The translations under genes and the position numbers were made by a program. Below are positions 4,548 through 61,797 of a stretch of DNA of 64,000 nucleotides, piece after piece; the stretch's first letter is position 1; each line of letters starts with the position of its first letter. This DNA comes from Fistulifera solaris (taxonomy: Eukaryota; Bacillariophyta; Bacillariophyceae; Naviculales; Stauroneidaceae): NCBI GenBank assembly GCA_030295235.1, contig AP026135.1, positions 730,001 through 794,000 of the forward strand, written 5' to 3'. A model generated the notes under the pieces. That model ran no database searches. It was not told where the DNA came from and saw only the letters and a program-made list of their open reading frames with translations.

Positions 4548-6268
4548 ATGAGATACGCTCTTCTGTTGACCCTCCGTCTGGCGGCAATTGCTGCCTTCAC
4601 TGCGACGCCATGTTTTCGATCCTCATCAACGAGCAATTCGCGTGCGATGACTTCACAACCAAGAGACAGCTACGACGTCGTTGTAGTGGGTAGCGGCATT
4701 GGAGGCCTTTGTTGCGCCGCGATGCTTGCTCTTTACGATAATAAAGTTGCAGTGTTCGAGTCCCATACACATCCTGGAGGAGCGGCGCACGGCTTTTCGA
4801 TCGAAAAAGATGGATTGAAATTTCAATTCGACACCGGGCCTTCCTTTTTAGCGGACTGAACCCAGACTTACCACCGAAATCATCCAATCCACTCCGTACT
4901 GTCCTAGACGCGATCGACGAACAAGTTGAATGCATCCCTTATAGCTCCTTTGGCTTGTTGTTTCCGGAAGGTGAATTTGTGCACACTCCTGAGTTCGACG
5001 CTGATGTTTTAAGTCAGTTTGGAAATGCTCAGGCAGAATGGAAATCACTTATGAAATTCATGGAGCCACTTGCGGCTACTGTAGCCGCATTACCAACAGC
5101 TGCTCTTCGTGGTGATATTGGTGTCATTAAGAGTGCGGCCCCATTTTTACCGAAACTGATTTTGAATCCCCAGCCTTGGAACAATCTACTTTTGACGCAA
5201 CCGTACAGTGAGGTTTTAAAACAAGCAGGAGTGAGGAATACGTTTCTCAAAAACTGGATAGATCTGCTATGTTTTTGTTTATCCGGTTTGCCCGCATCCG
5301 GGACGATATCAGCAGAAATGGCCATGATGATGGGAGAATTCTACGAACCAGATGCAGTTATGGACTGTCCACGATCGGGGGCGAAGAGCATCGTCGATGC
5401 TCTAGTACGAGGTCTCGAGAAAAATGGAGGGGATATTTTCTGTCGCTCGCATGTTGATAAAATTGAAATTGACGTGAGAGGTCAGGCCGTTGGCATTATA
5501 TTACACAAAAATGGACAACGAATTCGGGCAAAAAAAGCAGTCGTCTCAAACATGTCGGTATGGGACCTTTTGAAAAGTGGAATAGTAGATCGCAAACACT
5601 TTCCTGCATGGTTCCTTGAAGATCGTGAAGACACACCCGTTGGAAAATCTTTTATGCATTTACATGTAGGTTTCAAAGCGAGCCGTGAAGAGCTTGCTAA
5701 ACTACAAGCACATTACATGTTCATGAAAGATTGGTCACTTGGTGTAGAAGCAGCTGATAATGCTGTTTTACTCTCCATCCCATCCGTTCATGATGAATCT
5801 CTCGCTCCTGCGGGGTTTGGGGTTCTTCATGCATATCTACCTGCCACGGAAGACTTTGCTACTTGGGAAGGATTAGACCGCAAATCGAAAGAGTATCAGC
5901 AACTAAAAGAATCAAGAAGTTCGTATTTGTGGAGTACAATCGAAAAAGTCATCCCTGACATACGAGAACGCGTTATCGTATCACGAGTAGGAACTCCGCT
6001 GACCCATCAACGATTCTTACGTCGTTACAAGGGTTCCTATGGACCGGCTATAAAGGCGGGAGAGGCATCATTTCCCTTTCCAGGTACACCTGTGAAAGGC
6101 CTATTGCTTTGTGGAGATTCTTGTTTTCCGGGCATCGGGGTGCCTGCTGTCGCTGGATCTGGTCTTCTTGCAGCAAATTCCGTATCCTTAGATTCGCTCG
6201 ACGCACAAATAGACGTCCTTCGAAAGTTTCGGTTACGACAATCATCATCATTGATACGGAAGCAATGA
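4548..6268 (+). CDS. Plastid-targeted CRTISO/phytoene desaturase-like FAD oxidoreductase
   Basis: About 573 residues, the usual length for the CRTISO/CrtI-like family, which isomerises, desaturates or otherwise modifies carotenoids or retinoids using FAD. Residues 1-25 form a signal peptide, MRYALLLTLRLAAIAAF, with Phe after Ala at the predicted cleavage site, the diatom plastid signature. Next comes the dinucleotide-binding fold VVVVGSGIGGLCCAAM with the downstream ESHTHPGGAAHGF. The C-terminus has the family's FAD-contact segment LLLCGDSCFPGIGVPAVAGS. The frame breaks at a run of five T (4845-4849); six T would give DTGPSFF-SGLNPDLPP and join both halves perfectly, so I treat it as one gene with a probable missing base. 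The ATG at 4548 is preferred over upstream codons because it begins the signal peptide. The exact carotenoid substrate is unknown; paralogues have diverged in function in diatoms. Confidence 0.85.
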
Positions 6269-6707
6269 GGTTGGGTGATAATTTTTCTGTACTTTGTATC
6301 GTATAATTTTGTTTGGTCGTTGTAGCTGAAATAGCAGTTGTCTCGCTCCATGCGCAGCAAACAATTTGTTTTGTGTTTTTCATTATTTTCAAATAATAAG
6401 GAACTTCTCCAGGTTATGACACTTTGAAGACCATAATACTCTGGCTTACTTAGCGATAATGGTTCCGTTGAAACAACTTTAATTTCCTACACACTCTATG
6501 TACCAATAACAGATGTTCTATGTAACAGTAAGTCACAATCGCATGTCGACCCTCACTATGCGACACGACAACTAAGCTTTTCGCTAAAAACGATGTCACT
6601 GCTCCCTCCCACCACGACGACCATTTGAACGACGCAAACGATCTATTTTGACGGATAAGTATCAATAGCGGTACCGCAAAAAGCATTTTCGCTCCAATAA
6701 AGCAAGA
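6269..6707. other. Intergenic, no gene seen
   Basis: About 440 bases between two plus-strand genes. No supported open frame or RNA. It would hold the 3' end of the carotenoid oxidoreductase transcript and the promoter of the PT-repeat membrane protein. Confidence 0.5.
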
Positions 6708-8987
6708 ATGTGGGGCATTACAGTCTTGGCGCTGTTGTACAGTATAATCGGTTCTCGCGCGAGGTAAGTAATGAGCGCGTCGTGAATCCAGGCCGGCTCC
6801 TTGACGACCAGGAGTATCTCAAAGCTCACCTTCGACAGATATATTAAGGAGAGATTGGTAAACGAGTCCTTTGATCAAGACAAAGCGGGGTATTTGAAAG
6901 ATGGTGGAAGTTCTGCGTTGTCAGTTTCGAGTCAAACGTCAATGTCACGTCGGTTCCTGGTACCGACAAATGATGACCCGGTGTTCAAATCTCAACATGT
7001 TGACAGCTTAGTCTCTGGCTCCATCTCTGCGAAGCAACCAATTCCAAATAAGCCACAGCAGTCCTCAACTTCCTTTTTGGAGGGGATGACCCAATCTGTA
7101 AACGCAACATACGATTCTTCTCTTGTTGTCAGTCGGATGCCGAGCGATGCTCCAAGTTCAGTCCCAAGTCAATTTGTTGGCAACGAGCTCAGTGATATTC
7201 CTAGTGATATACCGAGCCTCACTCCTAGTGATGCACCGAGTCTTGCTCCAACTCATGTATTTGAAGACGATGCGAGTCGACAGCCAAACTATTCTCCGCC
7301 CGTTTGGACCCCCTATTCGTAGCTCTTCACCCAGTGCTCTTCCTAGTGAGACATACATAGAAACTTCAAGCTCCATTCCGACTATAGTAAAAAGCAACAG
7401 ACCGACTGCTAACGGTAGTGCCTCACCGACTAAGATTTCTGGAAAGGGAGCCAACCTTCAACTGTTCTAAGCAGCAATAGACCTAGTGTGAAAGGCAGTG
7501 TAACGAGGAATCCAGTCACTGAGTTTCCGAGCGCTCAGCCTACTGCAAGTAAATGGGATTCCGATGGTCGGACATCAAAACCGACTCACCAACCGATAAA
7601 ACCAGTAGTCTCAATACCTATCCCGGGTCCATCCCAGAAAAGTCCCACAGATGCCCCGTCAGTTTTTGTCGACACCGATACTCATGGGCAAGACGAAACA
7701 ATTCACTCAACTGTTCAGCTTCTAGATCTGACTACATTGGCAGAAACCGAACTGAATGAAAATGATGTGAGAGTTTTTCAGAATATATGCAAAGTGAATT
7801 TCTCCCCACGTTTCTTCCGAAAACATTCAATGCCGATTACAACAGAATTGACTGTCTAGTTTTGAATCAGAACCTTGGCAAGAAAAGAAAGCTACAAGAA
7901 GAGAATGCTTCAAGTGAATTGGTGCTATCTATTCTGCTTCAAGTCAGGAGCGAAGTGAAGCTTCCTAACAATGTTGCATTCAGCAACATTGTGGCCTTGA
8001 CATTTCACACTTACTCGGACGAATTACTTTCGCTGCTTGGGTCTATGGATTACTTTCCGTCTATTCATGTTAATGACAAGGAGCCTATTGTCACAGAAAT
8101 TCAAGGCGAAGAAAATCCCCTAGGCACGAACAAAGGAATAACAACGACAATGATAGCAGGTGCGCTGCTTGGCGGAGCTGTGCTTGCCATAGTTGTAAGC
8201 ATGTTAATTATTCGTCGCTCACGACAATCTTGCGAAGTTGGTGCGAATCGCTCTCGCCCAAAGGAAACTGCTTCCTCCAGCGTACGATCGATTCCCCGAG
8301 TCATCGGGTTTGCTACAGATGGTGTTATCGGTGAGAGAGGCGATGATTTCGGTCCGACGAGCATAGCATCTGAAAGTTCTCATGATGCTGAACAAATTTC
8401 AAAAAATGCAAATATGGAATGTAAATCAAGAACAAATTCAGCCGAAAAAACAGAGGGAAGCGGAAGTCTCGATTCATCGTTGCATGGTCTCGACATTCTT
8501 CAAAGCAGTGTGTCTTCTGGAGAATCCAAACTACCAGATAAGAAACTGATTGCCCGATTTATCGGGCGTCGCAGAAAAATCAGACGAAAGCAATGATAAG
8601 CTTAATGAGACGTTCACGATGAATCCCCTTGCTTCTGAAGATATGTATACTGATTTGGAATGCGGAGCAGATTCGAAGAACATGGTATATAAGAAAACGA
8701 AAACGGAGAGTGTTCACAAACTAGCGAAGAAGGCATCTGGTGAAGAAGAGAACAGTCTCCAAATGCACTTAGTCAACGCCGCGCACACAGGAGAAGTATT
8801 AAATGATCTTGGACAGTTCGAGGAACAATGGCACGACCGCCTGACTCGGGTGCGAGTATCAGCTAGTGCTGAAACACCTAGGCAAAGGAATACGCAATAT
8901 AGCAGACCCCCGCGAAGTCGAAGCATGATTTTCTCATCAATGAGTAATGATGTCTTGAGCGAATTTACTGATGCTGAAAGCTTGTAG
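6708..8987 (+). CDS. PT-repeat type I membrane protein (paralogue A)
   Basis: Predicted cell-surface protein of about 740 residues. Exon 1 (6708..6763) encodes a signal peptide, MWGITVLALLYSIIGSRAR; a 48-nt intron (GTAAGT...ACCAG) joins it in phase 2 to the rest. A long Ser/Pro/Thr stalk follows with PSDAPS, PSDIPSLTPSDAPSLAPT repeats, then a folded ectodomain (about 7740-8090), a transmembrane helix (IAGALLGGAVLAIVVSMLII, about 8155-8215) and a Ser-rich, charged cytoplasmic tail. The order matches the convergent gene at 9067..10769, so I infer paralogy; that gene adds a PDZ domain. Reading requires about four one-base corrections, each in a short homopolymer (around 7311, 7445, 7775 and 8555). 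Given similar faults in housekeeping genes nearby, these look like sequence errors, but true decay cannot be excluded. Function unknown; PT stalks are common in diatom surface proteins. Confidence 0.6.
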
Positions 8988-9066: not shown

Positions 9067-10769
9067 TTATGTATCTGAAGAGATCGTTCCTTCTTCGGAT
9101 AGCACAGTCAATCTGCGCTCTTGATTAGCTGTCTTTACCATGAGAGCAGTAATTGCAGAGGCAGACATAGCCCTTGTGTCAACGTCATCAATGGCAACAA
9201 TAATATCGCCAGGATAAATCTTGCCTTCAAGAGCACTTCCTGGATTGACCTTGTGGACCACTGGTCCTTCTAATGTCGTATCAATTACAATGCCTAATTT
9301 TCCCGGTGGGGCCATAATTTCGCGCGACATCATATTAGGTCGCACGCTAACTTCCGTTGATAAATCACCTCCCACGGTTGATTCACCCACTCTTTCACCG
9401 GTTTGCGAATCCACGTTCCCTGCGTCTAAGCTGTATGCGTAGCTCAAAGCATCCGCTCCTTCGCTTTCCATAACGGAGGTCGATGTAGTCACAGGAAAAT
9501 CGTCGTCCTCCTCCATTTCGTCGGGACTGTCAGTGTTCAATGGAATCTCGTCGTTTGAAGGGATGTCATCATTTGTTGGGATGTCATCGTTCACCGGAAT
9601 GTCATCGCTCGTCGGGGTATCGTCGTTCGCTAAAATGTTACCGTTTCTCGTGACAGGAATGTCATTGCTCGCCCCAACAGGAATGTCTTTCTCCTCTGTG
9701 TCAAGAAAATCGTCTTCTACGGTGGTAGTTTTATCTGTTGTTGTAGGAGAGGGATTTTCCTTAGCCGGGGAGGAACCGACTCCACGTGAGCTAGTGGTAA
9801 GGCTTGTGCGCGGACAATTTCAGGCGCGGTGTCCTCTTTCTTCTCATTTGTATGCGCTGCGGCACCGACCGGGCTGGATTGACCTCTTCTCATAATGAAG
9901 TATGTTATACCAGAAGCGAGAATAGCGGAAGCAACGATTCCGATGACGATGGCAACAATTCCAGGAGTTTCTAAGCCGTCATCGCCTTCCGCTTGACCAG
10001 CCGGAGGAGAAACGGTAGGATAGGGTGTGAACGTTGCGGGGTCAAAGGCATCCACCGTTTCGACCTGCGCAAAATAAAAGCCAGTGTCTGTTGATTCTCG
10101 AAGGGTTCTCGCGAAGCCGTCAGGATCATTGAGTACAGCGAATCGAAGAATAAGGTTGATATCACTGGGGCTGCCTGCGACTTCCGAAATCTTTCCCTTG
10201 ACATCCATCAAGGTGAGCAGTCGAGTCACCTCCGCTTGCAAATCTCTACGTCGAAGTCTCGTTTCATTCGGCACAATCTCTTGTTCTACGAAAGAGCATG
10301 TAACTCCCGATATTGGATCCGTCAACGTCTTGAGTTTTTCATTAAAGAAAACAGCACATTGTCTTTCGTACGCGTCCACGTAATTCTCGGGGATAATGTC
10401 TGACACATAGAAAAGAGTGATATAGACGCTTCCTTCTGTGTTTACTAATGGCCCCGTTGGAAGAGCTGTGTCGCCGCCTGTCGGAGAAAGAGTCGGAGAC
10501 TCCGTCGGGATCGGTTGCGGGGGAATCATGGCCGGAGGAAAAGTGCGAGTCGGCGGGGCCAAGATCGGCGCACTGATCGATGCTAAGGAACTTGGAGGAA
10601 AGGAAGAATCCGGGAACAGAGAGACGGGGGTAGGTGAAGGGAAGTCGGAGAGAGGCGACAAAGTCTGAGGGCTGGAGGTTGCAAATTGACCAGAGACAAA
10701 ATTCAACAGCGAAAGCACGACGCAAAGGCTGACCGCCCTGCCACTCTTTTCGCCCCATTGTGATCTCAT
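9067..10769 (-). CDS. PT-stalk type I membrane protein with cytoplasmic PDZ domain (paralogue B)
   Basis: About 565 residues. Signal peptide at 1-27 (VSLCVVLSLLNFVSGQF); Pro/Ser/Thr stalk to about residue 105; an ectodomain about 110-245 resembling that of the neighbour at 6708; transmembrane helix IVAIVIGIVASAILASGI near residues 275-295; then an acidic cytoplasmic region with short repeats of NDDIP; then a C-terminal PDZ domain with the carboxylate-binding loop PPGKLGIVID and PGDIIVAIDD. PDZ domains bind protein C-termini, so this chain could tether a surface receptor to a cytoplasmic partner (inference). The frame changes once near 9770, where one extra C in a CCCC run would join the halves. 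The gene is tail-to-tail with its paralogue, 79 bases apart. Ligand and partner unknown. Confidence 0.7.
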
Positions 10770-11441
10770 TCTTGTATGAGTGAGCCAAACTTTCGATGAA
10801 TAGCTTTTTTATTCCTCTTCCTTTGTCCTATTGCGTTCGCACCTCTTACCGATGAAGATGTAATAAAGCCTCTCCCTGCGAAACTCGAGCAACTCGATCA
10901 TTTCGAACTTTCCACCCTAAAATCGTAGAGTATTATGTTGGACCGGACGGCGGGAGATGACTATCGATATGATATTCGAGTATTTAGAGTACTTCTTGCA
11001 TTCAACGGATCGGAGATGAGGTTATACCACGGCCGAAAATTTGAGTATTTAATCCACGTAAATCTCCGTTGAGCTAGCAACGGGCAGAAGGTCTATAAGT
11101 ATGAAACTTCCACAGTGCGCGGCTTATTGCACTGGATCCCGGGTCCGCCATCTCTCGTTGTACACTGTACTAGGAGTCTTGGACGACCAGACCTGTTAAG
11201 GTGTCACAGCTACAAGCCACAGTGTTTGCTTAATACATGCGATGTTGTCTAGCTACTGCCAGATGATTGCAGAACAACAAGACGTCAATGCTATTGATAC
11301 GTAGTTTTAGATTATTAAGACAAGACTTTAAAACAATTGAAAAAGTGGCGAACCGCGTTCATCTCCGCCGTCTGCACATCGGTACCGGTTTACCGAACAT
11401 GGCAACAAACTCTTCCTGGAGGACACGTAAAGACCCTGGAT
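10770..11441. other. Intergenic, no gene seen
   Basis: Promoter side of the PDZ-domain gene and 3' side of the next minus-strand gene. The word GAGTATTTA recurs at about 10977 and 11042. Nothing else supported. Confidence 0.4.
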
Positions 11442-12948
11442 TCAGTAGCTCAGTCGCTGTTTGAGCGACTGCTTTTGAGGATTATTGAACAACGAGTCAT
11501 CCGAAAACTCGCTACTGCAATCACTCTCACTATTGCTGTATTCTGAGAAGTAAGAGAAATCGCTTCTCGAAAACACAATACTGCAGTCATCGATGAACCC
11601 TTTCATCGAACGCGGCTTTGAAGGAGAAGGGTTGGACTCTAACTTCTCGGAAGCAAAGCTGTGTGAAGGGTTTGTAACGCTGATACGATGACGCTGAGAT
11701 CGCGACTTTCTCCCTGCCTTAATCGAGGCTACTTTTCCAGGAAGCTCAAGCGCAGACGCCGCTGAATTCTTTGTGCTCACAGTAGGGAGGGTTTCAATGG
11801 AAGCAGCAGGCTCACGTTTCAAGCTTGAGTCCGAGGTTTTCTGTTGCTCAGTCGCGGGTTTTGCACAGCTGCTCCAGTCTTTGTCAATCGGTTCTGCAAG
11901 AATGACTCCCTTACTTTTCTTTCTGCGGTAACCAAATTTCAGCTTTGACCAAGATTTCTTCAGCATTCGTACAGGCTTTAAAATGAAAGACTTCGAGTTA
12001 GTGCTGGTCAGAGAAGGACTGACAGAGAAAGTCCTCGAAGCGCTCCTGACGAGGCTGTTGTCTGGCGCCGTGATTTCTTTTGTCTTTTCAAAGTCCTCAA
12101 GAGTTAGCTCCACGTTCGACTGATATACTGTGTGTGTATCCCCATCGGACACAACGTTTATAATCGCTCTCTCCATATTCATCTCCTCATCCAGGGGGCG
12201 ATGCGTCAGTATTTCCTTCTCCATTTCGAATTCTAATGAAGATGGAACTTGACTAGCCGCTTTTGGATGCTTTACGTTCGACAAGCGAGTTGTTGGTAAC
12301 CCCGCGGAAAGAGCAAACATTGAACTTTCTTCTCTATGTTGTGTTTTATGAAGATTGGAGTTCACAAGAAGGGCTCGTCCACTTGTTTTATCGCCGGCCA
12401 TCTTTTCGGTATATATAAGTCCAGCGAAGACATCTTCCGAAGAAGCTGAGCTAGCCAATGTGATCCCCTTCCGGCGGTGTTTTTTCACGGAAGGAATCGC
12501 GCTCGGGGATCGGACTTGATTTACCATCATTATCTTCCCGTCGGTCTTTAGTTGAGGGGTCTTTGATCAGGGTATAAGGGTTATTCTCCGCCACAGACAA
12601 GAAGTCCTCTAAGGATTGCAGTGAGTCATTCTTTTGAAGATCGTAAGGAAGGACGCTATCTGTTGTATTTGCGGCACAGGGCCTTGCTACGAACTGGAGA
12701 AAGCCGTTGTTTGCTTTCCATGAGGTAATACCTCCGTATCGATTTGCCTCGGGTTCCATACGTCGCGACTGCTGATTGGAAGTTAACAATTCAGCCTTTT
12801 CAGGATTTCCAGGAGGCATGCAAGTGAATTGTCCATTTGAATCGGAGGTGCGCCCCCGAACCAAAAGCGCTTCATCGAACGGAATGGACACTGGTGAAAC
12901 GAAACGGGATGGGTCTCTGTATCGATTGGCACCCCTTGATACCGACAT
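11442..12948 (-). CDS. Hypothetical disordered, Ser-rich protein
   Basis: About 500 residues with no recognised domain. The composition is Ser, Lys and Glu rich with few hydrophobic stretches, suggesting long disordered regions. A basic patch (VRMLKKSWSKLKFGYRRKK) sits in the middle and an acidic Ser-rich run (EYSNSESDCSSEFSDD) near the C-terminus. The frame shifts once, in a run of six T at 12480-12485 (plus-strand reading) where five would join RDSFREK to HRRKGITLA. No signal peptide or membrane segment. Could be a nuclear or scaffold protein, but nothing in the sequence decides this. Confidence 0.55.
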
Positions 12949-13399
12949 TTTGTTTCTCGACTAGTTGGTGGCCTGATGGACTTTTCTTTGCTTGCTTTGC
13001 TGTTGGTGTTCTTGTTGACGGCATTCTATCACAAGTTCCAAAAAGTGGCGATTATTTCGAGCAATCATTGAGCGCACGCCTTCTTGTCAACGGAACTTGG
13101 AAATATTTTTACTTAGTACTTTCTTCTAGCATTTTATTGATTGAAACAACCTTTGAGTGTGCTTGTTAAGTAAGTCGATCGCCAGTCTTCGTTCGTGTGA
13201 AAGCGTGACTAAAACAAAACGGCGGGTACCGGTACGGTACCTGGTACCGTGCACCTGGTAATCCGAATACATCGTTGTGATGTTGACATTGCGACACACT
13301 GACGACCATGGTTAATCGTTATACGAGCAGATGTCACCTTAGGCATATCAATGAGCCACGATAGACTGTGTTCATGCTTGAATCTTTCAGTCGAGAATA
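12949..13399. other. Divergent intergenic region
   Basis: Lies between the start of the minus-strand disordered-protein gene (12948) and the start of the plus-strand LRAT-domain gene (13400), so it should contain both promoters. It carries the GGTACC-rich cluster listed separately. No supported gene. Confidence 0.5.
13225..13260. promoter_or_regulatory. GGTACC/ACCGGTAC cluster upstream of LRAT gene
   Basis: A dense set of overlapping palindromic words, GGGTACCGGTACGGTACCTG then GTACCGTGCACCTGGTA, about 140-175 bases before the ATG at 13400. Similar ACCGGTAC or CCTGGTAC words occur upstream of the genes at 20436, 23254, 41174 and 62828. A regulatory role is only inferred. Confidence 0.3.
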
Positions 13400-15224: not shown

Positions 15225-15920
15225 TTTCTCACTTTGCGCAGCCCCTCTAACTAAACGGTTACCTCGCCGTGAAGTAATTTATACATAAATTTAATTGTAA
15301 TCATTGAGCATCATTTCATCTTCATCTCCACAATGAAGGAACTTCAAGCCGAATGCAATGGGTTGGAAGTTTTGCAATGGAATTGCAAACTACCGGTACT
15401 TTTGGGACGAAAACTTTTGTTGAATGCACGTTCCAAATATTTGTCGCACAGTGATAAAATAATTTTTTAAACAAACACTCCGTTTTCCTAATATTTATTC
15501 CTAATTTCCTAAAGTCAGAATGTAATTTTGACATTTGACTGAATTTTCCCATTTTGCGTTTCATTTTGTCACATATATTCCAATCTGGCACAAATAATTC
15601 GTTTTTGAAATTGAAAATTGAAATGATGAATTAAAGTGAATTGTCGGTATAGTATTGTTTTACTATCATTTTGGATGTACAGCAAGACTAGATAATAAGA
15701 CTCAAGACGTTTCAAACAATCGCAAACAAAAAAAACGAACGAGGAAAAAAATAGGCGTTCTTGCACAGGTCGCTTCGTCCGCGATTCCCGGTGGATTACT
15801 TCAAATGAACGCTCTTGCATCTCAGCTGCACTCAGAAACTTCGTCTTTGCGATACAAGCGATAAGCTGATAAATCATTAGTAGCTATCTTGTCCCTTACT
15901 TGATAATACAACGCAGAGAA
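15225..15920. other. AT-rich divergent intergenic region
   Basis: Between the start of the hemoglobin gene (minus) and the coiled-coil protein gene (plus). It contains one copy of the dispersed repeat at 15490..15591. Short open frames here run through the repeat and are not supported as genes. Confidence 0.5.
15490..15591 (-). repeat. Dispersed repeat copy 1 (inverted relative to 25742)
   Basis: Its reverse complement begins GTGCCAGATTGGAATATATG and ends TTAGGAATAAATATT, matching 25742..25842 at roughly 90% or better by eye. Weaker similarity continues past the end (AGTGTTTGT). The word GTCGCAC sits beside both copies, suggesting an element with short terminal inverted repeats. A non-autonomous DNA transposon remnant is the likeliest reading. 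Confidence 0.65.
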
Positions 15921-17553
15921 ATGACGTCGGCAGTACCGCGACGATCGGAATGGACGCCCATGTCGAGGCACAGTCGCCAGGCGACGTTGTCATTGCTTCA
16001 ACGCAGAAAATCTGCAATGACAGGATCGCATCCGAATGCATCAAAGCTACGGCAGTCTCAGACACTACAGGCTCCTCCTACCCATCATGTATCCTTCAAA
16101 TTACAATCACAGGTCGAAATGTCACAGCTTTCCCTCGATTCATCCTTGCAGACATCGCGCGCCTCAAAGCTTCACTATGATCCTCGCCACGACACGATGT
16201 TGCAGGAGAATTTGTCGGAAAAGCGAAGTAATACACATGAAAATGCTCGTAATCAACCAGATTGTCAGGTCTCCTCCGTCGATTCGAATGCGCGTCGAAG
16301 TATCCCGTTGGTCCCTTCTGGTCAACACTCGACTTTGACATCTGCTTCCCATACTGTATTGGCAACTCCCAAAAGTACAGTGCGCCACGGACGTAATGCG
16401 CTTCAGCGAGCAAAGCAGCAAGTGATGCAGACTCCTTTCAAGCCGACTACAACAGTCAATCGCCAAGAAACTTTCAGTGGCATTTCCTTGCAGAAATCGG
16501 TCGGTGGAACTTCATCTTTCTCCGGTAGCCTCTTTCATAACAACCAGCCCCTTGGACAGCGCAGTTTGTCGAACACCGCGAGGAAACCCTCCAGCGCATC
16601 CTTGGGTACGCGATCGGTGGTGACATTGGAGCCCGAGCAATTTGCTGCAACGAAGGCGTCACTAAAAATCGAGTTTCAACGCTTTGTGGATGAGAAAGAG
16701 GCTTTCTTGAAGCAAAAGAACAGGAGATGCTAGAGGTATTAACTGGTCGAGCAAGAGACCTCGCGAAGAGTCTTGCTACGACGAGCGAGCAATGCAAATC
16801 GGATATCATCGCCAAAGCGAAAGAAAACTACTCTGATCCCAGTCTTCAAACCGAATACCTGAAACTGCATCAATCGAGCATGAAAGAAGCCCAAAAGATG
16901 ATCCGGATGAGTGCGGACCGTGTCAGAAAGGAAGCGATCGAGAAAATTCAAGGCGAGCATTCCACCATTTTCCGTTCGCTTGAGATGGAAAAGAACCATC
17001 TTCTGGCCGTTGGTAAAGATATCATTGCGCAAGTTCGTCAAGCCAAGGACATGGCATTGACTTCGATCACCAATTTTCAAGCTGGTGCACTCCGTTCGCT
17101 TAATGGATACTTAAAATGTAGTGCTACAGGAAGCAAAGTTGCCCAAATGGCTCAGGGCGACTTTGCATTGAACTTCATGACTCCGCGCAAGAAACGTTCA
17201 CCGACTTCAAAGCGATTGCCATCGAAAAAAGTTCAATATCAAGAGTTTCAAAGCTGTAGCACTAGCCTCGGATCTGCGACGGAGAATAGCATGTGTCAAG
17301 ATCCCATGAAAAGAAACGACACGTGAATGTTTCCAAGTCTAAGAACCATCGAAAGAATTCGTCAGCATTTGAAACTGCTGATGCATCTGATGGAATGACA
17401 GCGTGCAGTCTATCAGAACCCCAATGCTCTCCCTTCAAGTTTGTCAGTCCTTCGTCGACTGACGTGAAGAAAAGTGGTACCAGTTGTGTCAAGTCGCAAG
17501 CAGAAGCGTCCGTCGCGGCACTCTCACGGTCGATCAAAACGAGCCCGACTTAA
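15921..17553 (+). CDS. Hypothetical coiled-coil protein
   Basis: About 543 residues. The N-terminal half is Ser/Thr/Gln rich and probably disordered, with many S/T-P and basic sites. From about residue 240 to 390 the sequence is strongly helical and charged (EFQRFVDEKEAFLKQK, then YLKLHQSSMKEAQKM), typical of a coiled coil. A basic C-terminal tail follows. Two frame changes occur, at an AAAA run (16714-16717) and a CCC run (17303-17305); one extra base in each makes a continuous protein. No membrane segment or known domain; a cytoskeletal or nuclear structural role would fit but is not shown. Confidence 0.6.
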
Positions 17554-18447
17554 TACATCTGGCATGCACAATCTAGACTTCAAAGACGACGTCTCATTTT
17601 CTTTTAGAGGCATGTGATCGAGGAGTTGTTGACTGACGAGAACGAGTTGAGTTTGTAATTCAAAGACGTATTCTCTATAATGCTGGTCTGTTTCCTTGCT
17701 TATAAAGTGGCTCTTTATCGATACAACGAAAACCAGTAACTGTTAGTTTCACGTGAATCTTCGTATATTGTTTTAGAATATTGTGTATAGCTGTATCTCA
17801 AAAGCATGATGAGGGAACTTTTTCAACAGTCGGTAGCAATTGCAGTTGGCCTAACCTTACGGTTCCAGTTTTACCAGGAAGGTTTCGGATTTGGTGTTCA
17901 GCAACAGTAACCGACGAAATGTTTGACTCGAAACAATATCAGTAGGATATTTCAAAGATCCTTCCAAACCGAAAGTCTTCTGACGTCCTCCACTATTTGT
18001 TGACCTAGTTGTAGCTTCACCAAAGAAGGAAAGTTGCGGTCTGATTGCCACAATCATTAAAACAACCACCGAGGGTAACAATCGACATCGTTGTTCATTT
18101 CACTTTTGTAAAAGCTGTGCGCAGCTGACGAGAGCAGAAAAATGGGTTCGCGGTTGTCCTTTTCCGGATTGATGATGAATGATGATTCTTCTTCACTTCG
18201 GCATCACCAGTACATTTGGCTCGTTAGTAAAGCATTTTGTACGTTGCCCAGTCTCACATCTTGTTTGTCTCTTAGACAAAACAATCTTGAGAGTGCCGAG
18301 TGGTACATTTGAGCTAAGTACAAACACGGAGAAGAAGTCGATTGAAAAATCTGGCGATCTCATTTTGCGATGGAATTCGCAAGATCGCCAGTCGCCGTTG
18401 TTAAAGCAGAACAACATAACAGACACACCTGGAAAAGGTAAATCACA
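17554..18447. other. Intergenic, no gene supported
   Basis: About 890 bases. A minus-strand open frame (17857..18081) with a hydrophobic start was considered, but its frame begins at a TTG and it has no recognised domain. Presumably 3' and 5' flanks. Confidence 0.4.
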
Positions 18448-19643
18448 ATGGGGAGAGCTCCGACTGTATCTGGTAGCGTGGTAGTCGTCGCGAAATGCCC
18501 AATTCCCGGAAGGAGCAAGACCCGTCTCATTCCACTTACCGGTGTCGATGGTTCTGCCCAACTTGCAACTGCTATGCTGGCGGATGTTTTGACGGCCTTA
18601 ACGCAAGCGGAGACAGAGAAGAACTTTGATCGTATTTTGCTTTACGCTCCCCCCTACCGATGTTGGGAAGCTAACAATGGAAAATTTGTTAGATCGTTTT
18701 GGTATTCCCCGACAACGAACAGATGAGAACGAGGCCAGTGAAGTCATGAGCACGAAGACCTACAAAAGTTCGAAAAGTGATAGAAAACATACGAAATCAT
18801 GGAACCCCGATGCCTGGACTCTATTGCCTATGTCTAATGAAAAAATCAACAGCGAAGGAGATCCTATTGACCACTCATCTTCGAAGCCTCTGAACCTTAA
18901 AAGTTCATACTTGAGTGATATCCTTGAAAATGCTTTACATCGAGTTCGACTAAGACTTCGAAAACTAAAAAGCGATGGTCCAGTCATATTTGTCGGCATG
19001 GACTCTCCTGATATCCCCCTCGATGAACTCGCGTATGCGCTAGAAGATTGCAAACGCGCGCGGGTATGTCCTTCTGCCGATGGAGGCTATGGCCTCTTGT
19101 CGGTTCCTTATCATGCACCTGCTGATCGGATTTTTGCGGGAGTAAGGTGGTCTGATCCCTTGACTTTGGCGTCGCAACTGAAAGCTCTGACAGATGAGGA
19201 CGTTCGCGTGACCGTAGGGAGAGTTATGTATGATGTCGATGAACCAGATGATGTGATACAGCTCGTAGAACGCTTACAAAAAAAGTGAGCGTCGTTTGGA
19301 TGGAAATGAAGAGGATCAACAAGATAACCTGGTGAAAGCTCCTCCAAAGACAGTGCGACAGGAAAGAACAACCGGGTCATGTAATTTTACGATACAAACA
19401 TTGCAAGAGTTAAAGTTATGGGGACCTGATGGGAAGCTGCGAGGGCTAAACAAAGAGAGCCACGTAGATGACGACGACGGAACAATAGCAAAGCAAGCCA
19501 CTCTTTCGACAAGTTTCAGCACGCATGACCATGTAGAAGACTATGGGGAGGAAGTGCTGATCCACAGTTACACGTCTAGTGCTTATGAGGAGGGCTTTGT
19601 CCCGAGTCACGACATGGCGGGAAGTCATTCATACTCGCTGTAA
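18448..19643 (+). CDS. DUF2064 / TIGR04282-type glycosyltransferase-like protein
   Basis: The N-terminus SVVVVAKCPIPGRSKTRL is the family's nucleotide-sugar-binding start, with the signature PxPGxxKTRL. Later VIFVGMDSPDIPLDEL supplies the aspartates expected at the metal site, and SADGGYGLLSV matches the conserved GGYxL segment. Bacterial members are GT-A fold transferases of uncertain acceptor. A polar insertion of about 75 residues separates the two parts. One frame change lies at a CCCCCC run (18649-18654), where five C give a continuous chain. The domain ends at a TGA at 19286-19288; a run of seven A just before it (19278-19284) would, with one more A, continue in frame to 19643, adding about 118 polar residues. 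I annotate the longer form but cannot exclude that the protein ends at 19288. Confidence 0.7.
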
Positions 19644-20435: not shown

Positions 20436-21390
20436 ATGCTTCAAGCTTTTACAATAGTTGTGCTCGTCTCCATCGAAGCCAAAATGTCGATGGCCGTCTC
20501 GCCAACTTTCCTGCGGAGTCTTGCGGAAGCTGAAAATTCAGACGAAGAGAGGGAACACGACACAGATCCTGTAGTATTTTGGAGCGTGAACGCCTTTATA
20601 TTAACCCTTTTGGTATCTGTATGCTCGTGGCTTTGGTGCTGCGGTGGGTACAAAGGTCTTACCCAAGTGCGGCAATCGGACTTGCGATATGCTCAGCGAC
20701 TACAACAACGAAATGCGGAACGAGAGGCTAGACGGCAGATGTCTCCCCAAGAACGACTGGCGGCAATTTCTCAGTCTTTGCGACGCAACCAAGTGCGGAT
20801 GGTAAGGTTCCACGGATATTGAATTATCGAGATGTGTAGTTTTTCTAACTTGTTTTGGACTTCGCCAGGTTGTGAAACAGGATGACCTGGTCGCAGAGGC
20901 AGATCATCATCACCAAAGAAATAGTGACGTTTTAATAAATGCGAATATGATTGCAGAAGGAAATGAGAGTAACGAAGAAGCGAGTATTGTTTTTGCCATC
21001 CCCGAGACGATGAAGCTAGATTCTGATTTCGCGCATGACCGTAGCGAAGAAAATGCAGCATGGGATATGACGACAGCATCCAATAAGTTTGGTAGCCTCA
21101 TTTTAAGAAATGTAAATGGTGAAGAAGCTGGACGAGTACCAAATCAATGTGCAATTTGCTTGGGAAATTACGGTGTCGACGATCCCGTTGTTTGGAGTAG
21201 CAATCCGGAATGCTCGCACGCTTTTCATGAGGACTGCCTGGTGGATTGGCTCGTACACTCGAAACAAGACGGAACACCCTGTCCTTGCTGTCGACAGTCT
21301 TTCACAGACCTTGTATCGTTTCGTAAGGAACGCATAGTTAGGTGGGCTCCTGATCGAGCGTTTGATCCGAGTGCTTTGAGGTTTCGGTAA
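20436..21390 (+). CDS. Membrane-anchored RING-H2 E3 ubiquitin ligase
   Basis: About 295 residues in two exons, 20436..20801 and 20869..21390, with a 67-nt intron (GTAAGG...CGCCAG) in phase 0. N-terminal signal or anchor (LQAFTIVVLVSIEAKM) is followed by an acidic segment and one transmembrane helix (SVNAFILTLLVSVCSWLWCC, about residues 48-68). The RING-H2 finger near the C-terminus shows CAIC, then CSHAFH with the two His ligands, then CPCC. Such proteins pass ubiquitin from an E2 to substrates at a membrane; E2 and substrate are unknown. Start taken at the first ATG (20436). Confidence 0.82.
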
Positions 21391-25639: not shown

Positions 25640-25741
25640 GGTCTTTTTTTCCTTTCTCTTGTGTGGGGTCTTGTCAAAAGAGATATCGAAGATCGAAAAT
25701 GTTTCCTCACAGACTAAAACAGTAAAATATTTTGTCGCACG

Positions 25742-25842: not shown

Positions 25843-25892
25843 TTAGTGTTTGTGTCAATTGTGAAAAACATTATTTAGAAAAAATAGCGAGA

Positions 25893-25979: not shown

Positions 25980-25991
25980 TTTACTGTGCGA

Positions 25992-47575: not shown

Positions 47576-48932
47576 TCACGGAGTTTCTCGGGTCGTCTCG
47601 GTTTGACTCATTGTGATCTCGGCTCCGACAGGGATGGTTTGCTGAAAACCGCCTATTAACATGGAATCATTATCCTCGTAGCCGATTTTCCTTTTGTCGT
47701 AAACCTCCATCTTGCAACCGTCCACCTTCCAACCCATCCGAAGCAAATGATCTACTCCTTGCTCGGTTGCTAAGTTTCCCAATTCATTTGATCCATTCGA
47801 TGTCTCTTCCGAAGCTCGGCTAGCTGTATTAAGAGAAAGGTCCCCATCACCGTCATAATGAGGAGACTTAGTCCGAGATATCGTCGTGCGTTCCACTCTT
47901 CTATATCCAATGGCGTTTCTAGCGATTCAATGTACGTCGGAGACAAGGCAGGATCTGTTGGACTCTCAGAAGGGGGGTATAACTCAGTATCGTTGCAAGG
48001 TAAGTTGCAGGGATGGGGGTCTTGGCATGGCACGGAGGACGTGCGTTTGCAATTCTTGCCGCTGCATGTAGCTTCTTGGCAGCACCGGTTATAGCATTTT
48101 GATGGTACGATCGGTGCATCTCCACTATTAGAATCAGCACTGTCAGCGCTATTAGTACTGTCTGTTATATTAGGAGGATATAAATGGGCATCAAAGATAC
48201 TCGGAATCGTTGTATTAAGCATCCTTTCAATATCCGTCAGAACTTCCTCCTTCATAGCTTCGACCTCCAATAATGAAGCAACAACATCGCGATTAAGTTG
48301 CGTCAATGTTGTCTGGTTAATGGGGTTCTGCGTTCCTGCCACGTAGCATTCAAACTTGAATGAATAATGCCACCAATCACGATATTCTTCTTTGACGTGA
48401 ATTGTCGGATTCAGGCGATTGCTCATTAGGATCATATCGACTTTTGATGCCTTTCGTCGTGGTATGCTTGCTAAGTCTTCCATATCCATCGCAACAGTAC
48501 AATTTGGAAGAGTTGCATCGAGATATTGTGTTATCGCTGGGCCGACAATCCACCCAATGGAACGAGCTCCTGGCCACAAGGCCACGTAAAGATCAAACTT
48601 GACGTAAGCACCGTATGGGTCCAAGGTAAAGTCGCCTATTGGTTGCATTTCATCGACAGTATTGTTTTCCGGATCATTTTCCAGGTTCTCGGTGCTGTTC
48701 CCTACGCCCGTTAGCTCTTCTAAACACTCCCTGGTCGCTGAATCGTACTCGCCCGATATGAAGTCCGACAAACGCTCCAAAAGAGTCGGACATGGATGCG
48801 GCAATTCTTCCTTTCTGGATCCACAGGAGGATATTCTTGAAACGCGGAAATGTTTTGGCTGGAAGCTCCGAAAGTCAGAGATAAAAGGAGCAACGGAAGA
48901 GCAAGTAAAAGCGTTTTTCGGGAGGAAAACAT
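47576..48932 (-). CDS. Cys-rich type I membrane protein, unknown function
   Basis: About 452 residues. Signal peptide MFSSRKTLLLALPLLLLSL, ectodomain of about 340 residues with several N-glycosylation sequons (NST, NTT, NQT, NIT), a Cys-rich patch (CYNRCCQEATCSGKNC and CNLPC), a transmembrane helix near residue 370 (LGLSLLIMTVMGTFLLIQL) and a cytoplasmic tail of about 70 residues. Two frame changes lie in TTT runs at 48812-48814 and 47775-47777 (plus-strand reading); one extra base in each gives DPEKEELPHPCP and MNWENLATEQG. No domain recognised; looks like a surface receptor or adhesin of lineage-specific type. Confidence 0.62.
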
Positions 48933-49485
48933 CTTCAAGGGACGAAAAGTTCCAAAACGTTCTGATTTTGCCGGCTCTTTATGATCTACTCTCCTTGTTT
49001 AAATGCGGAAAAAAATGATTGAGAGTAGCTTGCTATTCAATGCGAATTTGCCATTGTGGAACTCCGCCAAGGATGAAACTGGAGTTTCCTTTCGTGCACA
49101 CCGCACACCGTCTGCACATCTCTTTCGATTTTCGATCATTTTTTATAATCTCGCAAAGAGTATCGCGAGTTCTGTAACTCAAAAATTAGACTGGACAGGA
49201 CTGTGAGTTTTTTGCACGATTGTTCTTCCGTCTTCAGTGCGTGCAGAAACTGTGGCGACGTCACGATCACGACCGAGAAGATAATTCACGGGTAATGCCT
49301 ATTATCAACAACAAAATAAACGCTAGATCAGATCATTTGATGATGAAGAGTCTCTAATGAACATTAAATAATCCTAAGAATCAACGATAAATGACAATTC
49401 GGGAATCGTATCAAGTTCCTTGTGCAACTTAATTAGCTTGATGAAAAAAGACAAGACGTGAAACTGGTCATGCGGTCGTTCGAGG
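48933..49485. other. Intergenic, no gene seen
   Basis: About 550 bases between two minus-strand genes. Short plus-strand frames are not supported. Confidence 0.4.
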
Positions 49486-51017
49486 TCATTTACTCCCAAA
49501 ATTGACGAAAAGAGAAGTGATCACATCGACACCCACCGCTTCACTTGCTGGCTGACTCTTTGGGACGGGGGACGACTCATCTTGGATGTCAGTGTGATGA
49601 ACACGCTCATAAGTCGCGTCTTGTACATGAGCTGGCTTTTTGCTAAAGCGACGATCCTCTTCCTGCTGTTTATTGTATTCCGGTTCACGCACGGGTGAAT
49701 CGTATATGTGTGCGTACGTGTCATCGTACATGAGGTCTTCGTACATGGGTGGTGGGGCGTTATCATAAATTGATTGACGAGCGACATCGTCTTCGAACCG
49801 GGCCCTTGCTGAGTCGTACATTTCCGTTTCCAAAGCACTTCTTTGTGACACGTACATCGGAGCTTGGGGTGGGTGGTACTCGTAGACACCAGTAACAGAG
49901 GGATATCCCGGGGTTCGAACATTCCACTATCCAGTGGATGTGGAGCATTGCCATACATATCGGCAAAAGAAGGATGCCCTGGTTGATCGTACATTTGAGA
50001 GTAAAATGATGGAGCTTCTGGTTCACGCATGTAAGCTGTCCGCTGTACTGGTTCATCCTCCACTACCAATTCAGTTTTGACATGCTCTATTTTCGACTCC
50101 TGTGTATGCTCTTTCATTCTAGTGTCCTCTTCGCTGTTCGCATTGTCGTCAACGTCGATCAGATAGGGTTCAACACAGGCAATTATTCCTGGAAAGTGCG
50201 GAGAGCCTCTGTTCCGTACACGAATGGTACTTTTCTTTCCGGGAGTGCTCATCATTGTAAATAGCGGGTTTTTCATTCCGTCTTCCGAAAAGACGTCGAC
50301 AACCTGTTTCACTTCTTCGTTGTCACCTTGCAGTAGCTCAACTTTGGCATCCATTGGGAACCCTTCCGTTTGCAACAATATTCGCACACTCGAAACCGAA
50401 GGAGGAAAAGTAAATGACTGGACGCTTCCTCCTTCAATCAAATCAGGTTTGGTGTCCGATGTTGGACCTACCGAGTTATCAGCCTTTACTCCCGCTATGA
50501 GTGGATCCGCTATTTGTCCTCTGTCCATCAATTTACCATTATTGCTTATCCCAATGGCGTGTTGCCCATTCGGTGTCTCAATAATAGCACAAAATGGGTA
50601 TAGTTGTCCATTTTCGCTGTACATTTGCATCCGCTGTGGGGTGTAATAAGGTCCTTCCCAGACATCCAGCTCGGCGTGAACAGGATATCCTTCGTTCTTT
50701 AGCACAATTTGAACACCCTCGACGGTATGATCATGGAACGACCACGTCTCACGAGATTCTCCATACAGCATCACCGGCGGAGGCGAGTTACTTCGATCAC
50801 CAAACGCGTCTTCACCTCCATTCTGAAAGTGAAGGGCAACCCAGCTGGGTACATTGCATTTCGCTGTCTTCTTGCGAGGAGGCGATGACCGAAACCTTCG
50901 AATTTGACCACGCGAAGCCCAAGAGGCCAGAGGCTGGTGCACCACAAACGCTGTATCGGTAAAGAATAGCGATGTTATGACGCAGAGCGTTAAAGCGGTT
51001 TTGCAATTGTATTCCAT
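49486..51017 (-). CDS. Plastid-targeted protein with two tandem repeats and Tyr/Asp-rich tail
   Basis: About 510 residues. The presequence MEYNCKTALTLCVITSLF and then DTAFVVHQP has Phe after Ala at the likely cleavage site, as in diatom plastid proteins. Two copies of an 85-residue domain follow: one with VEGVQIVLKNEGYPVHAELD and one with VSSVRILLQTEGFPMDAKVE, each continuing into a MYSENG or VFSEDG segment and ending near the IGISNNG or IRVRNRG strand. The tail is rich in MYD/MYED/YDSP words. The frame changes in GGGG at 49910-49913 (plus reading); one more base gives MFEPPGYPSVTGVYEYHPP. The repeats are not a family I can name; a role in the plastid stroma or thylakoid surface is only inferred. 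Confidence 0.68.
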
Positions 51018-51720
51018 TGTTGCTTTCTAAACGTTCTAAATCACTCAATCAACCGAAACCGTATCGATCGGCCGGCAACAACATGCGTGCGGCAATGATA
51101 GGGATGGATTGGTTTCGTTCGTCGATGAACAGGTGTCGTTGATGATTGATTCTTCACCGTTGATGGGTTTTCGAACTTTCTTGGGATCGGTCGGAAGTCG
51201 GAATGGAAAGAAATCTCCCCTCATGGCGGACACAGAACAAGCAGCCGGTGAAGATAATCATTACAGCTGGCAGAAACGACTCCCACGGTGTACAATCTTT
51301 TCAATATAAGATTGAAGAAAGCGTCGCCGACAGCTGCTTTGTACCGCCAAATCTCATAACTAAAATATAGCGACCGTTATTTTCATAATTTTACTATGGC
51401 TACGCTTTTCTAGTAAATTCAGCATTTAGGGTACATTTTTATATGGATGCAGCAGAAACGGATCGAGGAAATCGAAAGTCACGCAGAAAACACAGTTAAA
51501 GACGTCATCCTCGCCTCATCCTCCAGCGTTCGTCTGTCATGCGATAGGCAAGCACATTATTTTTTTCGAGCGTCCTTCGGACCACGATTTTTTCCCGTTG
51601 TTTTTGCCAACCGACAATTCTCGTCTCCATTTTGTTCTTTCGAGATCTCGCCACTTTATACGACAGAAGTTGTTGTTGAAAGACGTCTTCAATAATCAGA
51701 CCAAAATACCATCTACCGCA
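51018..51720. other. Divergent intergenic region
   Basis: Shared upstream region of the plastid-targeted protein gene (minus) and AAMP/Sqt1 gene (plus). An open frame continues upstream from 51721 to about 51598, but the conserved start is the ATG at 51721. No other gene. Confidence 0.5.
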
Positions 51721-57893: not shown

Positions 57894-57994
57894 ATGCATG
57901 CCCCCACAGCCTCAACCGCACCTGAATCGAGAAATTCATCATCAGACATGACGAAAGAAGGGCGGGGAGATTATCCCCAGATCCTACTGATTCC

Positions 57995-59813
57995 ATGAGC
58001 ACTAATAGTGAAAGTCCTCAGCTTGAATTCTTTCCTTCGACCACACCGAATCCGTTAGCTCAGCCGATGAAAGATAGTACTCAAGAAAACTTCCCTCGAG
58101 TGATCACGACTCCGATCATACCTACTCCATCACAAGCTACGACTTCGACAGCGCAGGACGAAAAGAGCAAAGCTAACCCAAGTCGTCGAAGGAATTCGGT
58201 AAAAGGACGATTACAGGGCACGAACGGAGAAGAAAACACAGTGAAGCGCAGGCAAAAGCGTTTAGAACGCAACCGCGAGTCTGCTCGTTTGAGCCGTCGG
58301 AGACGCAAGCAATATCTCGAGGTGCTCGAAGACAATGTAAACCAGCTGAGTCGAGAAGTTGATCGAGGACGCCGTGAACATGTTTCACGTGCCGTCTGGA
58401 CGATTCACCAGAAAAGAGTGGGAATTTTAACGGAGTCGCCCACCCTCGATAAACTTGAAGTGCTCGAGAAGGGTTTATCGCGAACAAGCCAGTCTTTGCG
58501 TGTCGTGAACACGTTCCACTGGCAACAACTACAATCGTTTGTGCTACCTCCGTCAACGAAGTTCACTCTATGGCTTTCTCTTCAAAACGATGCATACTTT
58601 CGAGGCGGAAGAGCGGCCAGCGAGCGTCTTTCAGCTGCTCGCATCGGTGAAAGAGTAAGTTCAATTGTTGTTTTAACTTTTTCCTGGACCCCGATGTCAG
58701 CTAACACGTTCGTTCATCAGATGTTGTCCGCTGGGACAGACAGAGTGACCCCTTGCAATCGATGTGGCCTCTTTTCTGCAATGAAGTCGGTTTGTCGTAC
58801 GAGCAAGAAGAAAAGGTACGAAGCTACCAACGTGCACTGCTACAAACCCCCGAGTCCTGGCTTCACCGGCATACTGCCTTCGCCGCTGAGAAAACAATGA
58901 AGTCGGTACACGATGCAATCGAGGCTCTGACCAATCGTTTAGGAGAAAGGGAGAACGCTACGCAAGCGGTTCTTTCGCCCGCACAGCGGCTAATGCTGGC
59001 ATCGTGGGCAACTCGAAATCGTCAAAAGCTAAAGGATAAAGTTTCGCAAGTACCTTGCAAGGAATACTCCGAATGTAAGTTGTTAAAGAATCAGCATGAA
59101 GCTGTGAATTTGTACATCGTTAATCATCGGCTGGAAGGTGTGTTGAAGAGCGTTCCTTTGCCAGAGTCCCCTGCTGTGTCACCCAAGGAAGCCAAGAAAT
59201 TATCGCGTCGACCACTCTTTGAGTCACTTGGGTGTGTGAACGAAAAGAAGAAGGACTTTCTCGCGAGAACTCGTTTGCGTCCACTGGGTCTTTGAAGCGA
59301 GGGATGGCGGAGATGAGAATGAGTGGAGATGACGGCGAAGAGGAGCGTGTCCATCAACCTCCTATAAATCCAGAGGATGCGCAGCACAGTGCTTCGGAGC
59401 TGGTTAACAAAGTGTTGGGACCTGTCAAGAAAATTATTCCGGAAGCACCTGCTCCATCTTTTGTTTCTCTCGCCGGTGGCAAAATGGTTCTTCCAGCACC
59501 CACACCAGTGTCATCGATGCAATACTTTGCACAAGATCCTGTTCAGCCCATGCCCGTGCCAAGTGCTCCAATCAGCGCACCGATCGAAGCCCCCATTTAT
59601 GAAGCGGCGACACTTCACGCCCCTCTGTTGGAGACTGAAGATCAGGGCGCGCCAGAGGCAAAACACGCAAGAAAGTCATCTTTCTTGCCTCAGAATTTGA
59701 ATGTCGTCCCGGAAGAAATGTGGGGAGGGGATGCAGACGATCTTCTCATGAATCTCGTGGACGGAGATTGGGCGATTGGAGAGGGTATTGATATGGAGGT
59801 CATGCATCAGTAG
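57995..59813 (+). CDS. bZIP transcription factor of stramenopile type
   Basis: About 584 residues. The basic region KRLERNRESARLSRRRRKQY is followed by a leucine zipper (LEVLEDNVNQLSREVDRGR), then the conserved long C-terminal helical domain of diatom bZIPs (FTLWLSLQNDAYFRGGR, MWPLFCNEVGLSYEQEEK) and an acidic, Pro-rich tail. A 66-nt intron (58655..58720, GTAAGT...CATCAG) is a multiple of three without stop, so its retention would only insert 22 residues. Frame changes at AA (58757-58758) and AAAA (59243-59246) are each cured by one extra base. Upstream, an ATG at 57894 reads MHAPTASTAPESRNSSSD and would join with one extra C at 57975-57978, adding about 34 residues; the start is therefore uncertain. 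DNA target unknown, though bZIPs of this class bind ACGT-type sites. Confidence 0.85.
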
Positions 59814-60391
59814 AGCCTCACCTCAAGCGCCCGAGGGATTTTGCGAATCCCACCTTTTTGTGCTACATGCTCTGTCGTTTTAGCTTTATGCGAACTACAG
59901 ATTTATCAGGCCTATCAGGATCCGGATCTCACAACGAAACAACTGGATGATTAGCCTTGTGACGCAACCTTACTGTTCTTTACAGTCGCGAATGAAAGGA
60001 AAGGTTGATCGAATTGCATCATGTTAGTGATAGATATTTACACATATTACGTTATACAGATCTGATCGTATCGATAATGATTATTGTGTTTGGACCTTAA
60101 ATTATACCTTACATGAACTAGTTTATACCTTTTCAGTTACACTCGAGCATGTTTCGCTCATTTGTTAAGCTAGTTGAAGCGATACCTTGGCGATAAAGAG
60201 AGCTGATGTATAAACTTGTAAGCTCCTGTTAGAGGCTCTCGAATCGATTGACAAAACAAACCAAAATTTCTATACATAAAATTGGGGTGTTGCTGGTCAC
60301 AATGCATCATGACTCACTTTCGTCTTCTTCAAAAGCCTACGAAATATCTTCGATGTGTTTTCTCCCTCCCGGCTCCCTAAATTCACTTGCT
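59814..60391. other. Convergent intergenic region
   Basis: Between the bZIP stop and the stop of the minus-strand receptor gene. About 580 bases, AT-rich, no gene. Confidence 0.45.
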
Positions 60392-61797
60392 TTAGGAATG
60401 ATAACTCCTTGTCGCGACCTCCCCCTCCATGTGATTTTCGATTTGGCGAACACCTTCCTCCCCAACCTCATTGATATTTTCCAGCCTTCTTGCAGCGAAC
60501 TTTAACAACTCCATTTTCAAAAGTTTTTGCTGCTCAGCGTTCACTTCCTCGAACTCGCTTCCACAACAGCTGACGAATGAAATAATTTCGATCGCATCGA
60601 CTGCGCCCTCTCCGTCGATCTCCATGGCACCCCACACTGCATCAAAGTCTTTCTCTGACAAAATCCACTTCGCAAGAATTTGCTTTTGAGTGGTTCCTTT
60701 CATTCCATCGATATGTTCGCTTTCTTTCGCCAACTGATCTGCTGAGATAAATCCTAATGAAGGTCCGATTGTCAGATTGGGAGCAATTTGTTGGACAAAA
60801 CGTTTCTTGTACCGATTTTGTTGTTCCAGCGATTTTCGATAGAAGATTAAGCTTTACGCAGTAGCCAAAACCGAAACGATGCCAACAACAACACCAGCTA
60901 TGGCACTCGCCGACCAATTTTACTTAAAGGAAAGGCTACGTAGCCACATTCAGTTCCACCAGAACCACCAATGTCTGCGTAAAGAATAGATAAACTGTCG
61001 TTCTTGCCTCGATAAAGGCCAATTTCGTTTTCAAAAGGGGGGCATCCCATAAAGATCACCAGCCAAAAGGTCAGAGTGTAAACTATATCCAGTGGAATCT
61101 CTTTTCGAGTTCCTATTGCGAACTTATTGTACCTAAAGTCAGGATGATCTCCTATGATCCCCAGGGGCTTCAGAGTGACCAGAGAAGAGGAGATGAGGAA
61201 TCATCCCACCTAACACACTCGAAAAATACATTGACTCATACCTTTCCTCGAATATGACACTGTCCCTTCTGATATTGCAAGTAAACAAATCGCGTTGCTA
61301 CTGGAGATTCGGCAACCATCATATCACAGATTCGCTTTCCCGGTGCTTGATAGAGCTCTTTATCTCCACCGGGTATCCGTATCATATCCAAATCCGGAAA
61401 ACTATTTGTCATGTACGATTCTTGCGCCGTATTCTGCTGTATACAAACAGGTCCGTGCTTCCCAGTTTTCTGGAGCTGCAACAAATCATCGAATGTATTG
61501 ATATGAGTGGTTGTTCCGTACCAAATTACCCTCGGCAGGTGGATGGAAGAGCACACTGAGTTGGTTCGTTCGCAAACGCTCCGGTGTGACATAATACAGA
61601 CTCAAATACATGTCGTTGGTATACTCCGAGACAGGAATATCATTGACATCAGACTGGCCGCATAGATATTGCTGACGATAGTAGGGATCGTACGCTTGGC
61701 ATTCTGTGTTGCTATGTTCGCACAGGGTACCCTTCCTGCTGGGCGGTAGCAAGTCGTAGGTAAAGTTGGCTCGTTCCGTGAGAGGGTCCAGCTTCAT
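60392..61797 (-). CDS. Periplasmic-binding-like receptor with TM helices and EF-hand-like tail
   Basis: At least about 440 residues; the true start may lie further upstream. From 61797 a type 2 binding-protein fold is suggested by DMYLSLYYVTPERLRTNQL, NTFDDLLQLQKTGKHGPVCI and PVATRFVYLQYQKG, as in bacterial solute-binding proteins and ionotropic receptors. An intron of 74 nt (61168..61241, GTATGA...CTGAAG) joins in phase 0 to PLGIIGDHPDFRYNKFAIG. A hydrophobic segment (LDIVYTLTFWLVIFMGC), a short loop with GGTECGYVAF, and a second helix (AIAGVVVGIVSVLATA) follow. The cytoplasmic tail carries YKKRFVQQIAPNLTIGP and an EF-hand-like loop, AMEIDGEGAVDAIEI. Two frame changes (near 61530 and 60915) suit one-base errors; one in-frame TAA right after the second helix (60858-60860) is not explained by a homopolymer. 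Ligand unknown. Confidence 0.6.

Follow-up and report, generated by a model that had tools for sequence, protein, structure and literature searches.

According to the text available of the Kastor paper (PMC12007338), the commonest deletion errors in one nanopore assembly were those following runs of four to five bases. These one-base deletions, most often of A or T, split genes into apparent pseudogenes and were removed there using references and raw reads. The same class, residual homopolymer-length errors of long-read-only assemblies, is treated for bacterial genomes in the available text of the Polypolish paper (PMC8812927). Here, breaks of this kind were analyzed in Fistulifera solaris, described as an allopolyploid with 42 homoeologous chromosome pairs in PMC5935921. 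Unlike the Kastor case, the genome is that of a eukaryotic allodiploid, and the homoeolog within the same assembly served as the reference, without raw reads. A literature search, covering few subscription journals, returned no paper on nanopore homopolymer errors in Fistulifera or another diatom; no claim is made that such errors are unreported.

The window and its homoeologous copy

The window, that is, the whole analyzed stretch of 64,000 nucleotides, is C16:730001–794000 of an F. solaris genome of 51,715,745 bases in 61 contigs. Assembly Fsolaris_ONT_v03 (GCA_030295235.1) is cited in PMC12159174 next to the older Fsol_1.0 (GCA_002217885.1), and the sections available of that paper give the F. 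solaris assembly as 62 sequences and 52 Mb, with an N50 of 1,355,535 and a longest sequence of 2,726,884. N50 and total size equal those of the genome containing the window, whereas the published number of sequences differs from the 61 contigs found here. Two published F. solaris primers matched the apt homoeologs on C39 and C38 exactly (0 mismatches).

Nearly the whole window has an inverted homoeologous copy on contig C15, at ~793–860 kb, with an identity of 84–92% in 13 of the 14 aligned blocks and of 70% in the first block. Positions 22–61795 align in reverse (C15 ~859.8 down to 793.3 kb) and positions 62619–64000 align forward (C15 ~867.8–869.1 kb). As judged from the alignment, this arrangement may correspond to an inversion between the homoeologous chromosomes that spans 60 kb or more and has one end near 61.8–62.6 kb; it could be real or an effect of assembly.

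Other features of the window were recorded alongside. A dispersed, near-palindromic, MITE-like repeat of ~90–100 bases (25892–25980) was found at over 20 further places in the genome, with matches on both strands; the stretch around it (25650–26054) exceeds its C15 counterpart in length. Another dispersed repeat, of ~100 bases, is present twice in the window (25742–25855 and 15490–15591) and, among the matches listed, at about 12 places with 91–96% identity. On the minus strand, a TGA at 1913–1915, kept in both homoeologs, parts two codon-like stretches of one frame (1355–1912 and 1913–2758); it may be explained by an intron, by two adjacent genes or by a recoded TGA. Selenoproteins are known in diatoms. 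Scans of the window against Rfam (gathering threshold) and for tRNAs gave no matches.

Frame breaks in both copies

The window and its C15 copy were compared by codon-level alignment, in which either copy could undergo one-base frame changes. With strict settings, the alignment gave 33 frame changes. With relaxed settings, applied to the whole window, it gave 50 frame marks; 13 of these were dropped, and the marks retained comprise 20 in the window and 17 on C15. Inspection by eye added five sites in the window (12465, 48812 and, from an alignment of 7270–7880, 7309, 7443 and 7774) and one on C15, the counterpart of 7774. Marks were discarded as intron-like at 20805/20808/20824, at 31222/31418 and at 42524–42574 (four marks), as a compensating pair at 1946/1975, and as ambiguous at 36554/36599. 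Runs were assigned to the break sites by hand from the alignments.

The window was thus found to contain at least 25 one-base frame breaks, of which 17 are one base short and 8 one base long (Table 1), and the C15 copy 18 (13 short, 5 long). An earlier tally of 19 breaks, 3 of them shared, was too low, and was raised to 25 and 6 by the relaxed model and the alignment of 7270–7880; the counts are still lower bounds, because weakly conserved genes score poorly. Expressed per kb of coding DNA, frame-breaking changes amount to ~0.64 in the window and ~0.46 on C15. The breaks of both copies fall at 37 places, of which 19 are specific to the window, 12 are specific to C15 and 6 are common to both. 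Eleven of the 12 C15-specific breaks affect genes that also carry a break in the window; the twelfth, at 40361, falls within a glutathione S-transferase gene for whose window copy no break was found. Where a window break is unshared (19 sites), the homoeolog's frame is restored by a one-base change.

Table 1. One-base frame breaks in the window, with the state of the homoeologous copy on C15
Position	Strand	Run and change	Gene	C15 copy	Remarks
4845–4849	+	T5, one short	NAD(P)/FAD-binding oxidoreductase-like, 4452–6268	shared	
7309–7313	+	C5, one long	unnamed, 6786–8987	C4	absent from sequence-only list
7443–7445	+	A3, one short	unnamed, 6786–8987	A4	absent from sequence-only list
7774–7778	+	T5, one short	unnamed, 6786–8987	shared, T3	absent from sequence-only list
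8575–8579	+	A5, one long	unnamed, 6786–8987		absent from sequence-only list
9767–9770	-	G4, one short	PDZ-domain, 9067–10808	G5, open frame	absent from sequence-only list
12465–12468	-	C4, one long	unnamed, 11442–12960		by eye, unmarked by model; sequence-only placement T6 12480
16714–16717	+	A4, one short	unnamed, 15873–17326		
18649–18654	+	C6, one long	DUF2064, 18442–19643		
19278–19284	+	A7, one long	DUF2064, 18442–19643		absent from sequence-only list
22277–22280	+	one extra base in GGAA	RPL7, 22030–22750	GAA	
27281–27288	+	one A short (A3 27281–27283 or AA 27287–27288)	heavy-metal P-type ATPase, 25824–29250		
27841–27846	+	one short, within or next to T5	heavy-metal P-type ATPase		E1-E2_ATPase split at profile position 144
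30873–30878	-	T6, one short	RRP5		
33301–33307	-	A7, one long	RRP5		
34529–34533	-	A5, one short	RRP5	shared, run one shorter	
39153–39156	+	T4, one short	unnamed, 37391–39420		
41505–41508	+	A4, one short	unnamed, 41165–42968	shared	absent from sequence-only list
42266–42270	+	T5, one short	unnamed, 41165–42968	shared	absent from sequence-only list
44775–44778	-	T4, one long	unnamed, 44406–45585		
47778–47780	-	C3, one short	unnamed, 47576–49084		sequence-only placement TTT 47775
48812–48814	-	T3, one short	unnamed, 47576–49084		
49910–49913	-	G4, one short	DiatomPyrShell, 49486–51026		C-terminal tail out of frame
58753–58754	+	TT, one short	bZIP, 57926–59813		sequence-only placement AA 58757
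59243–59246	+	A4, one short	bZIP, 57926–59813	shared	

A previous sequence-only reading of the window had proposed that at least 20 coding frames break once, mostly in homopolymers and mostly by one missing base, and all three statements hold for the sites of Table 1. At each of the 17 positions that it listed, the frame does break and resumes after a one-base change. Its placement of the run fits the named run, or an equivalent neighboring base, at 14 of them; at the other three, comparison with the homoeolog assigns the break to a different run, at most 15 bases distant.

Pfam matches support the three gene identities given in that reading. In RPL7, Ribosomal_L30_N is encoded in one frame and Ribosomal_L30 in the next. 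RRP5 shows S1, OB and HAT regions across several frames, and the putative copper ATPase belongs to the heavy-metal P-type, with HMA, E1-E2_ATPase (profile positions 14–144, then 144–179 past the break) and Hydrolase matches. In both the ATPase and RRP5, domains continue from one frame into the next. The gene of the diatom pyrenoid shell protein (DiatomPyrShell) scores 219 bits in Pfam, and its C15 copy is open.

Run-length dependence and published dde targets

Observed runs of four or more equal bases make up 5.8% of coding bases and contain 19 of the 25 window sites (binomial p ~4e-19, runs assigned by hand); the other six sites are in runs of three or fewer. The proportion of window runs called short climbed with the true length of the run, as assigned by hand: 1/1428 for runs of 3, 4/422 for 4, 6/95 for 5, 5/16 for 6 and 1/2 for 7. 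Deletions outnumbered insertions in both copies. Whether all breaks are of a single base was set aside as an unfair test, since the model has no single step for frame changes of more than one base, and raw indel counts were used instead. Among alignment indels whose length is not a multiple of three, single-base ones accounted for 39 of 46 in coding sequence versus 137 of 260 outside the kept open frames (Fisher p 3.6e-5). In an exploratory score made by hand, in which shared sites were counted twice, A/T deletions taken in A orientation had a G after the A-run in 20 of 27 cases versus 42% of such runs (p ~0.0007).

A comparison with independent sequence was provided by the diadinoxanthin de-epoxidase gene (dde), whose homoeologs lie outside the window on C7 and C8. 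In the available text of PMC13276009, the target of CRISPR guide gDDE2 is given with T6GG at its end for both homoeologs. In the assembly the run is T5 on both contigs, which splits the VDE domain into profile positions 22–124 in one frame and 128–220 in the next. At both dde copies, therefore, independent sequence disagrees with the assembly in the length of a run. The same text reports 27 clones obtained with gDDE2 and gDDE1 together; at one homoeolog, 14 of the 27 had large deletions, as expected if the printed T6 target is correct. For the seven published guides on two homoeologs each, 12 of the 14 target sites match the assembly letter for letter, and the two mismatches are the dde T6 runs; the printed targets presumably derive from the older assembly.

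Both dde homoeologs are broken at several runs, of which the published guide target is one. In pieces of 40 kb each from C3 and C4, the strict model gave 18 marks, 12 of which were dropped as intron-like or ambiguous, leaving six clean single-base breaks (C3-piece positions 13021, 19501, 24307, 27932, 28004 and 36490). A gene beside apt carries a break common to both homoeologs. The breaks in C3/C4, in dde and beside apt indicate that the problem is not confined to the window.

These observations are best explained by residual run-length errors of the nanopore F. solaris assembly, which are very probably the source of the frame breaks, the DNA itself having open genes. The name Fsolaris_ONT_v03 and the published N50 are what point to a nanopore error profile. 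The basecaller or the consensus would report runs of about four to seven equal bases one short, and less often one long, on both homoeologs; some runs would be miscalled on both copies owing to near-identical local sequence. Each single site of the window is likely to be an error of the assembly that the DNA of the cell does not have.

Readings of the breaks and consequences for gene catalogues

Among the assembly errors, one to three of the 25 breaks might reflect true divergence, close to the ends of genes or in genes that evolve fast. The short runs at 22277, 58753 and 7443, the weak conservation of the genes at 7309, 12465 and 16714, and the position of the C15 event at 9300 close to a gene end lend themselves to this view. 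It is nevertheless considered rather unlikely, since a one-base change is enough to bring each of the 19 unshared sites into the homoeologous frame.

The six shared breaks required separate consideration. Each is one base short in both copies, even at 7774 and 34529, where the run lengths differ between the copies. Under independent errors given run length, 1.71 shared sites are expected when all rates are used (P of at least 6 = 0.008) and 0.30 with rates that omit the shared sites (P ~8e-7), so that errors in the window and C15 copies are not independent. Independence is not required of basecalling errors that are systematic. The excess indicates either that errors recur at particular places, and are thus systematic, or that the shared breaks are real; we infer the former, that is, site-specific errors. 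The motif A5GAAG, found in two shared sites and in one beside apt, was examined and gave no rule, as the 246 kb examined show no depletion of it (6 A5GAAG versus 25 A4GAAG, ratio 0.24, compared with 580/2086 = 0.28 for all A5/A4).

If the shared breaks were real, programmed ribosomal frameshifting could operate at the breaks, chiefly at these six, whose identical location in the two homoeologs, above the expectation for independent errors, and common direction (one base short) count in its favor. Yet 31 of the 37 break places are unshared, the base before the run is mismatched at 4845 and, on C15, at the counterparts of 7774 and 34529, where a clean one-base slip would appear to be unavailable, and the comparable shared break in dde reads T6 in published sequence; frameshifting is accordingly regarded as very improbable. 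Equally little credit is given to a related possibility, in which the six would be ancestral one-base deletions read through by minus-one slippage on T/A runs, with breaks tolerated in essential genes such as RRP5. Because sharing exceeds independent error, the error reading is held somewhat less firmly, and slippage slightly more, than they would otherwise be.

Gene loss is generally expected after allopolyploidy, and the breaks are truly present in the deposited sequence. Both points fit true pseudogenes, with one or both homoeologs decaying by small deletions after the hybrid origin. Constraint was compared on this account. The dN/dS ratio was 0.127 in 19 segments of broken genes versus 0.114 in 14 other segments, two of which are short pieces (112 codons) of gene 6786–8987, later found broken. 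In the strict run it was 0.109 ahead of the first mark and 0.125 beyond it, with no relaxation of constraint past the lesion. Segments were picked for codon-like substitution, which biases the absolute values low, so that the comparison alone counts. RPL7 has a dN of 0.005 despite its broken window copy. The same genes are broken in both copies and mostly at different places, with two breaks in the window and three on C15 for the ATPase, and three and four, respectively, for RRP5. Instead of the mixed lesions of decaying genes, single-base changes dominate; in-frame stops were marked at intron-like places, in antisense segments or at 1915 (in both copies). Breaks in both copies, similar constraint and dependence on run length combine to disfavor pseudogene decay, which is most unlikely. 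Introns were ruled out as the cause of the 25 breaks, as the frames overlap and a one-base change yields a single open frame; they were accepted as the reading of the discarded marks within 20805–20826, at 31222/31418 and within 42524–42574.

Assembly error rather than pseudogenes was also the interpretation of the sequence-only reading, and it is upheld by breaks in both copies, similar constraint, undercalls that climb with run length and the T6 versus T5 discrepancy in dde. It is refined here in that eight of the breaks are extra bases, three runs had been misassigned and the six shared breaks need site-specific error.

The result is a warning rather than a discovery, and no new biology is needed to account for it. 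Gene catalogues built on the assembly would split healthy genes, and gene models, counts of homoeolog loss and guide-RNA designs derived from it may be wrong at many runs, affected examples being RPL7, RRP5, the pyrenoid shell protein and diadinoxanthin de-epoxidase. Except at shared sites, the homoeolog of this allodiploid serves as an internal check.
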